Assembly (NCBI RefSeq): GCF_001975725.1
Contig: NZ_CP019434.1
Coordinates: forward strand, 1,327,041 to 1,391,040
Origin: Acidihalobacter ferrooxydans
GTDB taxonomy: Bacteria > Pseudomonadota > Gammaproteobacteria > DSM-5130 > Acidihalobacteraceae
Reading direction: 5' to 3'
DNA: 64,000 bases
Shown: positions 6,331 to 61,161 of the stretch, piece by piece
Position numbering within the stretch: position 1 is the stretch's first letter
Layout: each line of letters starts with the position of its first letter
Position numbers and translations under genes: made by a program
Notes under the pieces: model-generated
The model's input: only the letters and a program-made list of their open reading frames with translations
The model's database searches: none
What the model was told of the DNA's origin: nothing

Positions 6331-6915
6331 TCGCTAATAAATCCGTTGTTGGGCGACTGTGGTATTTTTATTTGTATCAGTTAGTTGTGTGAAAATAACA
6401 GGTTCTGGAATTTGACAGAGTAGGCCTTGCGGCATGAACTGTAGTTTGTCCGTGATTCAGATACCCCTCCTTCTTTATGGGTAGCTAGCAGGAGTGTAAG
6501 TTTCGCGGTGACCTGGTATTCGGACTGGGCGCAAAACGACGGATTGGGGCCGGCTATCAACTTCAATGGCTGTGCCCTACGTAAATGAGCGTTGGCCGGT
6601 CTGGGCGGGGACTGGCTGAACTTCGGGTTCTCTGCATGGCATCCGCACGATGCTGATCCGGCCTAGACGCAAGAGATAGAACGCTGGCAGGGGCTGATCG
6701 CGGATAGGATCGCGTCTGAATAATCGTTGAGTACTTCACTGCAGTTAGCCAATGGCTGGGCGTGCTCGATAGGCTATGAATCATCGTGACAAGGCGTATG
6801 TATCGGTGTTTTACGCTGGCTGCAAGAAAAACGAGTTAATAAGTTATTGAAATACATTTAATTATTCTGGTGGCGATGCATGGCAGACGCATTCGCCGAA
6901 GTTTGTTTTTGGGTG
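6331..6915. other. AT-rich gene-free stretch
   Basis: No open reading frame here has a ribosome binding site, family-like sequence or codon use resembling neighbours. The only frames are short (61 and 73 codons, minus strand). Base composition is clearly less GC-rich than in flanking genes, especially before 6400. It may be a decayed insertion or a long regulatory region. Confidence 0.4.
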
Positions 6916-6918
6916 AAA

Positions 6919-7075
6919 ACCTGTTGGACTTGGTAAGAATCTAACGCGGCGATGGGGTGATTGGTCCACAACCCGTACGTTTTCGTTAAATAGAACTATT
7001 ACGGAAAATAGAGAAACCGGCCTCCATCTCCCGCTCGCTTCACTATGATCTTTCTCAAGCCCAACAAGCGCCGGG
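6919..7075 (+). repeat. Family A repeat, degenerate copy
   Basis: Left end ACCTGTTGGACTTGG then CGCGGCGATGGGGTGATTGG, and right part CTCCCGCTCGCTTCACTATGATC followed by CAAGCCCAACAAGC, match both halves of the family A element best seen at 20351-20455. A middle insertion of about 50 bases makes it longer than the other copies. Confidence 0.5.
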
Positions 7076-8529: not shown

Positions 8530-8692
8530 AACCCGGCTGTTTCATGCGTTCGCGCAGATATCGCGTCGGATACGGGTGTCACAAGGGGCACCGAAGGAGC
8601 GTCGTATCGGTCAATACGGTCGACTGAGGACATAACCCCGTGTGAAATCAACCGGCCCGCGAGATCGGTGGAGATTTGCGAAACCGCCGGGT
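8530..8692 (+). repeat. Family B repeat, copy 1
   Basis: 163-bp element with terminal inverted repeats ACCCGGCTGTTTC and GAAACCGCCGGGT. It has the family core: CACAAGGGG...CGAAGGAGC, CGTATCGGT, CGACTGAGGA, CCCGTGTG, then CCCGCGAGATCGG. Inner CACAAGGGG and CCCGTGTG arms form a second nested hairpin. It fills most of the 364-base gap between the MFS gene and hldE and encodes no plausible protein. Confidence 0.75.
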
Positions 8693-8873: not shown

Positions 8874-10316
8874 ATGAGTTTGACCATACCCAATTTTGAT
8901 CGCGCCCGCGTGCTCGTGGTGGGCGATCTGATGCTCGATCGTTACTGGCACGGCGACACGTCGCGTATTTCGCCCGAGGCGCCGGTGCCGGTGGTGCGTG
9001 TGGGGCCAAGCGAGGAGCGGCCTGGCGGCGCAGCCAACGTGGCGCTGAATCTCGCGGCGCTGGGCGCACGACCGTATCTGCTCGGCCTGACCGGGCATGA
9101 CGAGGCGGCCGATACGCTGGAGCGGGTGCTGACCGAGGCCGGCGTGCGGTGTCGGTTTCTGCGCTTCGGGAGTCACCCGACGATCACCAAGCTGCGTGTG
9201 CTGAGCCGGCATCAGCAGCTCATCCGACTCGATTTCGAGCAGGGCTTTCTGCCCGAGGATACCGCGCCGCTGGCGCTCGACTATGCCGAGCTGCTGGACG
9301 AGGTCGAGGTCGTCGTACTTTCCGATTACGGCAAGGGTACGTTGGCAGCCAGCCGCGAACTCATCGCGCTGGCGCGCAGCCAGGGCAAGGCCGTGGTGGT
9401 CGATCCCAAGGGCAGCGACTTCGCGCGCTACCGTGGCGCGACGGTGATCACGCCCAACCGCAATGAATTCGAGCAAGTCGTCGGGCGTTGTGCCGACGAG
9501 GCGACGTTGATCGAACGCGGCGAGGCGTTGATCGGACGCGAATTGCTTGGCGCGCTGCTGGTCACGCGCAGCGAAGAAGGCATGACGCTGCTGCGTGCCG
9601 ACGCGCAGCCGCTGACCCTGCCCACGCATGCCCGCGAGGTGTTCGACGTGACCGGCGCCGGCGACACCGTGGTCGCCGCGCTGGCCGCGGCATTGGCGGC
9701 AGGGGAGGACTGGCCGCAGGCCGTGGCGCTGGCCAACCTGGCGGCCGGGATCGTGGTCGGCAAGCTGGGCACGGCGACTGCGACCACTGCCGAACTGCGC
9801 CGTGCGTTGCATGCGCACGACGAACAGCCGACAGGCGTACTTGCCGTAGAGTCGCTGGCGCAGGTCGTCGAGGATGCCCGCATCCACGGCGAACGCATTG
9901 TCATGACCAACGGTTGCTTCGATATTCTTCACGCCGGCCATGTCGATTATCTGACCAAGGCCCGCCAGCTTGGCGATCGGCTGATCGTCGCGGTCAACAC
10001 CGACGAGTCTGTGGCGCGCCTCAAGGGGCCGAAGCGGCCGATCAACATTCTGGCGCATCGCATGGCCGTGCTGGCCGGGTTATCCGCCGTCGACTGGGTG
10101 GTCTCTTTCGCGGAAGATACGCCCGAGCGTCTGATTTGCCGACTGCTGCCGGATGTGCTGGTCAAGGGCGGGGACTACCGCGCCGAGGACGTTGCCGGTT
10201 ATGGCTGCGTGACCGCCCACGGCGGAGAAGTGCGCATCATTGATTTTCGTTACGATTGTTCCACCAGCAAAATCGTCCAGGCCATCCGGCGGGGCGACGC
10301 GGAGACACACTCATGA
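8874..10316 (+). CDS. hldE: Bifunctional heptose 7-phosphate kinase / heptose 1-phosphate adenylyltransferase
   Basis: 480 residues, close to E. coli HldE (477). The N-terminal ribokinase-type domain shows [33 protein letters not shown] and the anion-hole motif [15 protein letters not shown]. The C-terminal nucleotidyltransferase domain starts near residue 340 with [17 protein letters not shown] (HxGH motif). The two domains phosphorylate D-glycero-D-manno-heptose 7-phosphate and later activate heptose 1-phosphate with ATP to ADP-heptose for the LPS inner core. ATG 8874 begins at the conserved [18 protein letters not shown]; upstream in-frame ATGs would add unrelated residues. It overlaps hldD by 4 bases (ATGA), so the two are co-translated. 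Confidence 0.96.
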
Positions 10317-11251
10317 TCATCGTCACCGGCGGCGCCGGTTTTATCGGCGCCAACATCGTACAAGCCCTCAACGGGCGCGGCGAAACCGACATACTTGTCG
10401 TTGATGATCTGGAGGACGGCACGAAGTTCGTCAACATCGCCGACCTGCAGATCGCCGACTACATGGATAAGGACGATTTCCTGGCCCGCGTCGAGGCCGG
10501 CCGGGACTTCGGCGCGCAGGCCATTTTTCACGAAGGCGCGTGTTCGGCCACCACCGAGGGGGACGGCCGCTACATGATGCGCAACAACTTCGAATACTCG
10601 AAGACGCTGCTGCACTACTGCCTGGATCACGGCACACAGTATCTCTATGCCTCTTCGGCATCGGTTTACGGCGCCGGCCCGGTGTTCACCGAGGGGCTGG
10701 AGCACGAAAAGCCGCTGAATGTGTACGGCTACTCAAAGTTCCAGTTCGACCAGTACGTGCGCCGTCTGTCCGCGCAGGCGCGCAGTCAGGTGGCGGGTTT
10801 TCGTTACTTCAACGTTTACGGACCGCGCGAGCAGCACAAAGGCTCGATGGCCAGCGTCGCCTTTCATTTCAACAACCAGATCAAAACCGATGGCCGCTGC
10901 CGTCTGTTCGAGGGCACCGATGGCTATGCCAATGGCGGCCAGCAGCGCGATTTCGTCTACGTTGGCGACTGCGTGGCGGTGAACCTGTGGTTCCTCGATC
11001 ACCCAGAAGTGTCCGGAATCTTCAATCTCGGCACCGGCCGCGCGCAGACCTTCAACGACGTGGCCAGTGCCGTGATCGACTGGCACGGTGCGGGCGAGAT
11101 CAAATACGTCCCGTTTCCGGAACATCTCAAGGGGCGTTACCAGAGCTACACTCAGGCCGATATTTCCGCCCTGCGCGCGGCCGGTTACGAAGCGCCATTC
11201 AAGACCGTCGAAGAGGGCACACGGCTTTATCTCGACTGGCTGAACCGCTAG
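10313..11251 (+). CDS. hldD: ADP-L-glycero-D-manno-heptose 6-epimerase
   Basis: 312-residue short-chain-dehydrogenase-type epimerase that inverts C6 of ADP-D,D-heptose to give the LPS core precursor. Visible: Rossmann motif [12 protein letters not shown] at the extreme N terminus, [19 protein letters not shown], and catalytic [13 protein letters not shown]. It follows hldE with a 4-base overlap. The stop codon TAG sits at the left border of a family A repeat. Confidence 0.96.
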
Positions 11252-11326
11252 GAGCCTGTCGGATTTGGAAAGCATCGGCTGCGGCGATGGGATAATGGGC
11301 CCATTTCCCCGCTCTTTTTCGTCGAA
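11250..11326 (+). repeat. Family A repeat, copy 2 (left half variant)
   Basis: Starts AGGAGCCTGTCGGATTTGG, then ATCGGCTGCGGCGATGGG and CCCGCTCTTTTTCGTCGA. The same left half and the same CTCTTTTTCGTCGA variant recur at 12808-12905. The right terminal repeat is not recognisable; the 14-bp tandem repeat follows directly. Confidence 0.65.
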
Positions 11327-11368
11327 TAGAATCACTCGTCTAGAATCGCTCGTCTAGAATCACTCGTC
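11327..11368 (+). repeat. Three tandem copies of a 14-bp unit
   Basis: TAGAATCACTCGTC, TAGAATCGCTCGTC and TAGAATCACTCGTC in direct succession, with one substitution in the middle copy. The array lies at the right edge of the family A copy between hldD and waaA. Confidence 0.85.
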
Positions 11369-11553
11369 CTCAAAAGAGCAGATTGTGAGCCTCTTGCCCC
11401 TTGCCGCAGCCGATGCTTGCCAGGTCCGACCGACTTCTGGTCTCGTACCTCATTGCCGGCGGTATGTTCAGCACCCATTCCGGGTAAGCCGCAGTGCGCA
11501 GGCAATGGCCATTATGGTTCGATGTGTTCAGCCCTGCCGCGCCGGCCTCTGAC

Positions 11554-12810
11554 ATGCGCGGGCTCTACACCTTGCTGCTGTATCTGATCGCGCCGGCCGT
11601 GGTGCTGCGCTTGTTGTGGCGCAGCCGGCGCAATCCGGGCTATCGGCAGCGCATCCCCGAGCGCTTCGGTTTTGGCCGGGCGTTCGCGCAACGGCCGCGC
11701 ATCTGGATTCATGCGGTGTCGGTCGGCGAGACCATCGCCAGCGTACCGCTGGTGCGCCGATTGCAGCAGCAGTATCCCGGTTATGCCGTGCTGGTGACCA
11801 ATACCACCCCGACGGGTGCCGCGCAGGTCCGGCGCCTGTTTGGCGATACCGTCGAAAATGCCTACTTGCCGTACGATCTGCCCGGCGCGGTCGAGCGTTT
11901 TCTGGAACGGGCACGGCCGCGTGTCGTGCTGTGCATGGAAACCGAAATCTGGCCCAATCTGTTTGCCGCCTGCGCTCGCCGCAATGTGCCGGTGTTCATC
12001 GCTAACGCACGGCTTTCGGCGCGCTCCGCGCGGGCCTACGCCCGTGTCGCCGCGCTGACCCGCGCCACGCTCGGGCAGGTTGCCACGGTGGCGGCCCGCG
12101 ATGCCCGCGACGCCCAGCGTTTTCGTGCGCTCGGCGCACCGCGTGTGTTCGTTGCCGGCAACCTCAAGCATGACCTCGATGTGCCGGCGACCGCGCGCGA
12201 AACCGGTATGGTGTTGCGCGCGGCGCTTGGCGCCGACCGCCCGGTATGGATTGCGGCCAGCACCCATGCAGGCGAGGATGAAATCGTGCTCGACGCACAC
12301 CGTCGCCTGTGTGGACGGTTGCCCGATGCGCTGTTGATACTGGTGCCGCGCCACCCCGAGCGTTTCGACGAGGCCGCGGCGCGCAGTGCGTCCGCCGGTT
12401 TTGTGACCCGCCGACGCAGCCTTGATATCGTGCCGGATGCGCAGACCCAGGTGTTCATTGGCGACACCCTTGGCGAGCTGATGTGCTTCTATGCGGCTGG
12501 CGATGTGGCTTTCGTCGCAGGCAGCTTCGTCGAGGTCGGCGGACATAATCCGCTGGAACCGGTGGCGCTCGGTCTGCCGGTGCTGACCGGTCCGCAGGTG
12601 TTCAATTTCGAGCAGGTTTATGCGGCACTGTTCGCCGCGAATGCGGCGCGCCAAGTGGACGATGCAGGCGCGCTCGCGATGGCCCTGGTCGAGTTGTTTG
12701 CGGCGCCCGAACAGCGGGCGAGGATGGGTGAGGGCGGCGAACGCGTGCTGGCTGCGCATCGCGGAGCGACGGATCATCTGGCGGCATTGCTCGCCGACGC
12801 TTTAGGCTAG
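11554..12810 (+). CDS. waaA: 3-deoxy-D-manno-octulosonic acid transferase
   Basis: 418-residue GT30 glycosyltransferase that adds Kdo to lipid IVA at the inner membrane. A hydrophobic N-terminal segment (LYTLLLYLIAPAVVLRLLW) is followed by IWIHAVSVGET, the conserved start of the N-domain with the catalytic Glu region, and CMETEIWPNLF. The C-domain has VAGSFVEVGGHNPLEPVALG and FNFEQVYAAL, signature nucleotide-sugar-binding elements of WaaA. ATG 11554 begins at MRGLYTLLLYL, matching the usual short N terminus. Together with hldE and hldD it supplies the LPS inner core. Its TAG stop is again at a family A border. Confidence 0.94.
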   Translation: MRGLYTLLLYLIAPAVVLRLLWRSRRNPGYRQRIPERFGFGRAFAQRPRIWIHAVSVGETIASVPLVRRLQQQYPGYAVLVTNTTPTGAAQVRRLFGDTVENAYLPYDLPGAVERFLERARPRVVLCMETEIWPNLFAACARRNVPVFIANARLSARSARAYARVAALTRATLGQVATVAARDARDAQRFRALGAPRVFVAGNLKHDLDVPATARETGMVLRAALGADRPVWIAASTHAGEDEIVLDAHRRLCGRLPDALLILVPRHPERFDEAAARSASAGFVTRRRSLDIVPDAQTQVFIGDTLGELMCFYAAGDVAFVAGSFVEVGGHNPLEPVALGLPVLTGPQVFNFEQVYAALFAANAARQVDDAGALAMALVELFAAPEQRARMGEGGERVLAAHRGATDHLAALLADALG

Positions 12811-12905
12811 GAGCCTGTCGGACCTGGAAAAAATCCGCTGCGGCGATGAGCACGAGGCCGACACCCCGTTCTTTTTCGTCGAGAGATATCTGCCTGTTCG
12901 TGGAG
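12808..12905 (+). repeat. Family A repeat, copy 3
   Basis: Left end TAGGAGCCTGTCGGACCTGG, then CCGCTGCGGCGATGAGC and CCCGTTCTTTTTCGTCGAGAG, ending near CTGCCTGTTCGTGG. It fills the gap between waaA and the next small gene and carries that gene's GGAG ribosome binding site at its right edge. Confidence 0.65.
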
Positions 12906-15581: not shown

Positions 15582-15629
15582 GCGCAGGCGACTACACTTA
15601 TGGGGCACGTTCAATCCGGTAATCCATCA

Positions 15630-15755
15630 GGAGAGGCGCCTTGGCTTGATCTTTGAGTTCGCGGCTTGCTTCTTCGGTCGGGCATCACGCAACACGGTCG
15701 CTCGCCGAAGAATCATCCCTGTGAATTCAAAGCTCTGCGCAATCATCGCCTCGCC
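15630..15755 (+). repeat. Family D repeat, copy 1
   Basis: 126 bp bounded by imperfect inverted ends: GGAGAGGCG...CTTTGAGTTC at the left, and the complement of GGCGAGGCG...CTTTGAATTC at the right. A reverse-orientation copy lies at 59290-59412 and a right-end fragment at 33250-33300. Shared blocks include CTTGATCTTTGA, GCTCGC-GAAGAAT and CTCTGCGCAATCA. Confidence 0.6.
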
Positions 15756-15801
15756 ACAATGGACTATCCGGGCTCAAAACCACCGAGCATGGAGGTCGCC
15801 C

Positions 15802-17436: not shown

Positions 17437-17732
17437 GCGATGCCCGGGATGCTTTCGATCTGGCGCCGCTGAGGCGCGTGTGTGCGCGTATCGAAGCGGC
17501 CCCGACCAGTGGCATCGGCCTGATGCTTTATGGTCTGCTCAAGGGCATGCAGGTCGAACAGCGGGGTAGCCCGTTCGCACTGACGCGCCTGCGCATGCTG
17601 GAGGCCGATGTGCGTGCGGATGTCTATGCGCTGATGGAATTATTCGCGCAGCAGGCGAACCATGCGCCTGAATGGATGGCGATGCTCGCGCGGATGGACG
17701 AGCTCGTGGGAGCCGAGGCCCGCGCGGATTAA
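17433..17732 (+). CDS. Small helical protein of unknown function coupled to pmbA
   Basis: 99 residues, no signal peptide or transmembrane helix, predicted mostly alpha-helical by eye (LRRVCARIEAAP, ALTRLRMLEADVRADVYALM). It begins at an ATG overlapping the pmbA stop, which argues for a real, co-translated gene. I do not recognise the family. Confidence 0.6.
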   Translation: MSDARDAFDLAPLRRVCARIEAAPTSGIGLMLYGLLKGMQVEQRGSPFALTRLRMLEADVRADVYALMELFAQQANHAPEWMAMLARMDELVGAEARAD

Positions 17733-17734
17733 CT

Positions 17735-17868
17735 AAGGCTGTCGTTGTCTACTCATGCGGCACGCCAGGGCATCAAAATCGGACTCTTGTGCTCATTTAC
17801 GCGCTGTATACCGCGTTTTTTCGCCCGATAATCCTTCTCTCGCACTCGCCTGTGCGACAACGCCAGTC
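17735..17868 (+). repeat. Family C repeat, copy 1
   Basis: 134 bp, left end AAGGCTGTCGTTGTCTACTC, right end GCGACAACGCC. It matches the reverse complement of 25544-25681 along its length: ACTCATGCGGCACG, TCGCCCGA-AATCCTTCTCTCGC and CTCGCCTG-GCGA are shared. It lies three bases after the stop of the small pmbA-linked gene. Confidence 0.7.
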
Positions 17869-17979
17869 GTACTAATGGACTATTCGGGTCAATCCCTCTG
17901 TCACGCACAAACGGATAGCCTTGTATCGGCGCGAGCCGCAGCAGTCGGCGGCGATGGTGCGCGTGGCCCGCTCTTTGGG

Positions 17980-20350: not shown

Positions 20351-20455
20351 CCTGGGAGCCTGCCGGATGTGGAGGATCAGCGCGAGGCGAGTGGGGGATG
20401 GTCCCATTATTCCATCGCCGCAGCCGATTTTTTCCAAGTCTGACAGGCTCCCAGG
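20351..20455 (-). repeat. Family A repeat, best-preserved copy
   Basis: 105 bp bounded by a perfect 12-bp inverted repeat, CCTGGGAGCCTG (20351-20362) and CAGGCTCCCAGG (20444-20455). Read on the minus strand it gives CCTGTCAGACTTGGAAAAAA, TCGGCTGCGGCGATGG and CTCGCCTCGCGCTGATCC, matching the other copies. It lies directly in front of dnaB, ending 20 bases before its ATG, so it is likely to be in the dnaB leader. Confidence 0.85.
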
Positions 20456-33238: not shown

Positions 33239-33300
33239 CCGACAGGCTCCTGGCTGAAGACAATTTGAATCCAAAGCTCTGCGCAAGCAGCGCCGCGCCT
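33239..33300 (+). repeat. Fragment of family A right end joined to family D right end
   Basis: CCGACAGGCTCCTGG (33239-33253) resembles a family A terminus. It is followed by GGCTGAAGA and GAATCCAAAGCTCTGCGCAA, the right part of family D. It looks like a nested or decayed pair of elements. Confidence 0.45.
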
Positions 33301-40381: not shown

Positions 40382-40416
40382 GTCAAGTCCGGCAGCCTCC
40401 TCCGACTGGCTCCTGG
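40382..40416 (+). repeat. Family A right-end fragment
   Basis: GTCAAGTCCGGCAG followed by GGCTCCTGG resembles the right end of the 61058-61161 copy (CCAAGTCCGGCTG...GCTCCTGG). No left half is visible; it lies 15 bases after family B copy 3. Confidence 0.45.
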
Positions 40417-61057: not shown

Positions 61058-61161
61058 CAGAAACCTGTCGGACCTGGAAACAATCGGCTGCGGCGATGGG
61101 CTACTGTGTTTATTCCCTTCTCGCCTCGCTTCGATCCGCCAAGTCCGGCTGTTGCTCCTGG
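61058..61161 (+). repeat. Family A repeat, copy 5
   Basis: 104 bp from CCAGAAACCTGTCGGACCTGG to AAGTCCGGCTGTTGCTCCTGG, with both terminal halves preserved. Core ATCGGCTGCGGCGATGGGCT and CTCGCCTCGCTTCGATCC match the dnaB-upstream copy read on its minus strand. Confidence 0.8.

Follow-up and report, generated by a model that had tools for sequence, protein, structure and literature searches.

The window analysed here, i.e., the whole stretch of 64,000 nucleotides of the Acidihalobacter ferrooxydans genome, corresponds to positions 1327041-1391040 of a contig of 3,448,835 bases. Four full or nearly full copies of a repeated element are located in it, besides a half copy and two isolated ends, as follows:

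20355-20451, plus strand: short-form element (97 bp) with an internal deletion, lying in the intergenic region that precedes a dnaB-like gene
61060-61158, minus strand: short-form element with decayed ends (covariance match, E 2.2e-15)
6915-7073, minus strand: long-form element, strongly decayed (covariance match, E 1.7e-5)
11251-11437, minus strand: long-form element with an expanded apex (repeated apex segment)
12810-12882, minus strand: half copy of the long form, with the break at its apex
33239-33250, minus strand: solitary terminal fragment CCGACAGGCTCC (12/12 bases of the end motif)
40384-40400, minus strand: solitary terminal fragment (15/17 bases of the end motif)

The copy at 20355-20451 is flanked by TG (20353-20354) and CA (20452-20453), a decayed TA duplication. 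The original prediction had described it as a 105-bp repeat (20351-20455) bounded by a perfect 12-bp terminal inverted repeat. The repeat is present and the 12-bp match is exact (CCTGGGAGCCTG/CAGGCTCCCAGG), but the element proper is limited to the 97 bp given above: the outer bases are part of the target site, and the repeat extends inwards, with imperfections, over the full element. Among the five copies that had been listed, those at 20351, 6919, and 61058 were recovered, whereas the one at 11250 is longer than claimed (up to 11437) and the one at 12808 is only half an element. The end fragments placed at 33239 and 40382 both match the end motif, and the core words do recur in the window (TCGGCTGCGGCGATGG exact in three copies, CTCGCCTCGC in two).

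The left TA of the 11251-11437 copy, together with the G that follows it, serves as the TAG stop codon of the preceding ORF (10256-11251), and at the half copy 12810-12882, the ORF before it (11494-12810) likewise ends in a stop formed by the left TA and G. No element is found at the gene end orthologous to that of the 11251-11437 copy in the relatives read. A tandemly repeated AGAATCRCTCGTCT-like unit is present in the apex of this copy. In Ottowia thiooxydans, a dnaB-like gene is closely preceded by an element end (L047, 2477), as it is here by the short copy at 20355; this shared neighbour is probably a coincidence. The window also harbors other repeats. A second family (around 17725-17889), of which this genome has at least 20 copies and the same-genus relative G004 three, often adjoins copies of the element or sits inside them (inside the copy near genome position 2552958, for instance); further repeats of the same genome, with a lower copy number, lie around 15610-15772 and 8552-8671, and a 41-base stretch (around 10322-10362) recurring in three relatives is possibly another short repeat.

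When the end motif was searched genome-wide with the pattern AGGAGCCTGTCGGACNTGGA, allowing up to three mismatches, 115 forward and 122 reverse matches (237 in all) were retrieved, versus 0 + 1 for the same pattern read backwards, so that the repeat is not due to chance. Eighty-four further genome stretches were fetched, and 115 elements were called, 111 of which were kept after four double-called copies had been dropped. Hence, the 3.45-Mb genome (a single contig) contains at least 111 readable copies, on the order of 120 rather than the hundreds that had been anticipated; many further copies sharing the same ends were thus found, and neither outcome regarded beforehand as contrary to the prediction (no further copies, or copies with no shared ends) was seen. 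Each element runs GGAGCC...GGCTCC within the context C-TA[element]TA-G and is one imperfect palindrome, folding end to end as a single hairpin, with a terminal inverted repeat of about 18 bp (18-19 bp), GGAGCCTGTCGGACTTGG, conserved at both ends. The commoner class is a long form of 157-165 bp (about 163), comprising 62/111 copies; 36 copies belong to a short form of 95-99 bp (about 97), and the remaining 13 have other lengths. The short form has the same two ends and is an internal-deletion derivative of the long one, without the apex of about 64 bp. In this genome, the median pairwise identity is 0.908 for the long copies and 0.773 for the short ones; the greater likeness of the former suggests that the long form spread in a later burst. 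Being short, gene-less, and dispersed in many copies with defined ends and terminal inverted repeats, the repeat is a MITE, i.e., a mini-transposon. Of the two possibilities originally put forward, MITE or REP-like element, it is the former that is borne out by the ends, the dispersal, the internal deletions, and the 2-bp target duplication in related genomes described below.

According to a crude ORF caller, 106 of the 111 copies lie outside genes (46 in tandem, 26 in convergent, and 17 in divergent gaps, and 17 at an edge) and five inside; no convincing insertion inside a gene, nor any in-frame peptide, was recognized among the matches listed. In tandem gaps, the element orientation agrees with that of the genes in this genome (34:11, p 0.0008); since this is not the case elsewhere (9:12), the bias is only suggestive. 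There is no link with the leading strand in this genome (52:57). By the same crude calling, overlaps with stop codons were observed in 13/111 copies of this genome and in 19/77 copies of other genomes.

The flanking letters of 105 end pairs (on the left, CTA in 53, CCA in 17, and CTG in 11; on the right, TAG in 49, TGG in 16, and CAG in 11) correspond to a CTAG site with TA on both sides, decaying to CA or TG. Both TAs are retained by 24/111 copies of this genome and by 32/76 copies elsewhere (77 copies, minus one too near a contig edge). Where the outer base next to the two TAs is a different one, the terminal G and C of the element are intact in 9/9 copies elsewhere, which, in a sample chosen by exact end, would favour a 2-bp rather than a 4-bp duplication; in this genome, the first G is not intact in 2/2 such copies.

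The target duplication was read in the Acidovorax relatives of the element and not in the present genome; at the orthologous sites of its four relatives, the junctions have diverged too far. The joined flanks of six Acidovorax sites were searched in four related genomes, and a contiguous empty site was found in a relative for five of them (none for L081). In four of these five cases, the filled site is longer than the empty one by the length of the element and exactly 2 bp more, and at L098 by that length and 5 bp more; at L071, for instance, CACTA directly joined to GCATT in three genomes becomes CACTA[element]TCGCATT when filled. The dinucleotide of the empty site is TA in three cases (L071, L098, and L130), CA at L134, and CG at L097. 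At another locus (L100), the element is absent in the relatives and the junction is too diverged to be read. The gain of the element plus 2 bp is the signature of IS630/Tc1-mariner transposition, and it is accompanied here by a TA duplication with a preference for CTAG.

Elements that agree in ends, length, and fold but whose interiors have diverged are present in Acidovorax, Comamonas, Simplicispira, Ottowia, Ramlibacter, Alcaligenaceae, and other Betaproteobacteria, in Rhodanobacteraceae, and in Desulfuromonadales. An exact scan of named genomes with the 19-base end retrieved 111 stretches, which is a lower bound; 77 element pairs were read in them, 51 measuring 162-164 bp, the rest being either 181-202 bp long, with modules of 18 and 21 bases, or shorter deletions. 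Modular insertions of these two sizes are of the Acidovorax type (L074, L115, L053, and L063), with lengths of 181, 184, and 202. Lentisphaerae, Verrucomicrobia, and Planctomycetes showed an end-like match only and were not counted as carriers. In the genus set containing Acidovorax, 43/47 genomes have at least one match, many of them at control level, the highest counts being 16 + 17; the family and order sets comprised five genomes. As for the closest relatives, three end matches were found in the same-genus genome G004 and none in three genomes of the sister genus, a distribution that would reflect either a recent amplification or a loss of copies elsewhere. No match to the Acidovorax form was found in the plasmids or phages searched, and the form of the present genome gave one weak plasmid match; such a near-absence is odd for an active mobile element. 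In the parts of the literature searched, the letters of the end motif occur only once, where a fragment of the element end is a primer for work on omcE in Geobacter sulfurreducens (PMC11077965).

The mean predicted RNA energy on the better strand is about -88 kcal/mol for the long form and -51 for the short one. A cross-group alignment of 33 hand-chosen long elements from several groups yielded a consensus of 58 pairs, 23 of which show both-sided (compensatory) changes. Paired cells amount to 95.9%, versus 86.8% in shuffled alignments and 35-50% when the columns are slid by 1-3, and the covariation score is 0.291, versus 0.135 (shuffled) and 0.05-0.09 (slid); the long copies of the present genome are less well paired than this set. 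Whole-length pairing is therefore kept across groups by compensatory changes. The top strand, assigned from homology rather than from energy, folds better than the bottom one in 61/62 own long, 29/36 own short, and 49/50 other long copies, with Alifold energies of -77 versus -47. An excess of G.T over A.C mismatches is biased if the reference structure comes from the very strand being counted; on the strand-neutral union of the two predicted structures, it is smaller (156:43), and on the bottom-strand structure there is none (32 G.T and 41 A.C). Rfam covariance models gave no gathering match in the window and in nine loci. The hairpin, of which one strand folds better than the other, would have been selected as RNA or as single-stranded DNA. 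It is tempting, if rather speculative, to regard this fold as the cargo of the element: in Beta-, Gamma-, and deltaproteobacterial lineages alike, compensatory evolution might keep a 163-nt one-strand hairpin that is needed in its folded state, as RNA or single-stranded DNA, either for mobilisation in trans or as an mRNA-end structure of benefit to the hosts, with insertions at stop codons that rebuild the stop. Arm-to-arm correction in a palindrome can, however, produce matched changes with no selection, and the compensatory changes might possibly be the outcome of such conversion, which would be compatible with the MITE reading. Pure conversion should not favour a strand, so that the better folding of one strand speaks against it, as does the G.T excess on the strand-neutral union.

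The transposase that might mobilise the element was looked for in IS630 (DDE_3) and Y1 loci only, and a MITE can outlive its partner. None of the six IS630 loci of this genome, and none of 30 of the 36 DDE_3 places found in 45 carrier genomes, has the ends of the element; 26 of the 45 carrier genomes have no DDE_3 match at all. The IS630 elements of this genome (L142-L145) were rejected as a source, as they share the target but not the ends, their terminal repeat being GTGTAGTGCGTC versus GGAGCCTGTCGG of the element; an independent copy of the element lies near L142. The broken transposase fragment of L146, which has a decayed element end inside it, led to IS630-like relatives of IS1471, whose ends mismatch. 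Solitary ends elsewhere were also considered as edges of an autonomous element, and none of the longest nearby ORFs at 18 loci looks transposase-like by eye; an end pair 2666 bp apart (L080) has a right end with four mismatches. Seven Y1_Tnp matches exist in this genome: no repeat end was found at L148 and L152-L154, and hence no linked RAYT gene in these loci, and L149-L151, lying outside the scan, are matches of the same length as L148 and with a near-identical score. The autonomous transposase or RAYT with the same ends, which the original prediction had proposed to look for, was thus not found in the IS630 and Y1 loci. As for the target, the TA-flanked terminal repeats detected in 10/30 IS630 loci elsewhere read CTA[...]TAG (TA flanks being required by the search), and the IS630 element L142 is inserted in the same way; hence, the target formats of IS630 and of the element agree.

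Altogether, the most probable interpretation (about 0.86) is that the repeat is a non-autonomous DNA transposon (MITE) moving, now or formerly, by cut-and-paste of the IS630/Tc1-mariner type. A transposase of the IS630 type, supplied from elsewhere (absent or lost here), would bind in trans the terminal repeat of about 18-19 bp, excise GGAGCC...GGCTCC, and insert it at the TA of a CTAG-like site, with duplication of the TA. Insertion at TA with TA duplication is known for the IS630-type element ISY100 (PMC2170065). Insertion in a CTAG overlapping a TAG stop would rebuild the stop from TA and the first G of the element, which helps to explain why many copies abut gene ends. The interpretation is weakened by the fact that no transposase with these ends occurs in the 6 own and 30 carrier-genome loci; for this reason, the claim is limited to stating, with the same confidence, that the element works like an IS630-mobilised MITE, and it is not assigned to any named family. 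Also to be weighed against it are the near-absence from plasmids and phages, the reading of the target duplication in Acidovorax and not in this genome, and the crude ORF calling on which the gene context depends.

Transposase families other than IS630 with TA/CTAG targets exist, and together with the lack of matching IS630 ends in the loci examined, this leaves some room, albeit limited, for a MITE mobilised by one of them, such as an IS5-related group. TA within CTAG is, however, a documented preference of IS630 (title of a study cited in PMC2170065), and an IS630 of this very genome uses the same site format. A comparably modest chance may be granted to a structured RNA or mRNA-end element, domesticated and no longer mobile, which would have spread in ancient times and be inherited vertically now. 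The cross-group covariation, the strand-specific folding advantage (61/62 own long copies and 49/50 others), the co-orientation with genes in this genome, and the absence of plasmid or phage matches to the Acidovorax form would fit such an element; its presence or absence differs between related genomes, however, the orientation bias is missing elsewhere, and the long copies are fairly similar to each other (0.91 versus 0.77 for the short ones), so that a later burst is suggested. Very improbable is a REP/BIME-type repeat dispersed by a RAYT (Y1) transposase: REP sequences are likewise palindromic, intergenic, and present in many copies, and Y1 matches do occur in the genome, but the discrete size of the elements (97/163 bp), their two symmetrical ends, the 2-bp target duplication, and the Y1 loci with no repeat end nearby (L148 and L152-L154) led to its rejection.

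By description, RUP and the Correia elements appear to be the closest kinds of element (PMC2229807, consulted in part). RUP (repeat unit of pneumococcus; 107 bp, attributed to IS630-Spn1) is similarly an intergenic MITE of about 100 bp with about 110 copies, a TA target, and a stem-loop; here, instead, no matching IS630 ends were found, a longer form exists, and the range is cross-group. The Correia/NEMIS elements of Neisseria (about 107 and 155 bp) likewise come in two sizes, distinguished by an internal segment, and duplicate TA, and stem-loop transcripts are known for them (PMC2229807); they differ, again by description, in the host range and in the whole-length cross-group covariation shown here. 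The BRE repeats of Bordetella and other Betaproteobacteria (about 90 and 40-60 bp; Hot et al. 2011, PMC3110155), whose chromosomal hosts are Alcaligenaceae and Comamonadaceae, Acidovorax among them, may be relatives of the present element or even identical with it, judging from the described sizes and hosts. Forms of the present element of 87 and 48 bp exist in the same groups. BRE are described there as tandem, variable in number, and with no named ends, and the letters of the end motif are absent from the main text of that paper as far as consulted. The kind of element is therefore already known, while the family, its cross-group conservation, and the empty sites are new here.

The family offers a bacterial MITE whose empty sites have been measured, whose target rule is clear, and whose fold is conserved between distant groups; whether the hairpins of bacterial MITEs are selected as RNA thereby becomes testable, by alignment as well as by experiment. 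The omcE primer hints at a copy of the element in a genetically tractable organism, Geobacter sulfurreducens.
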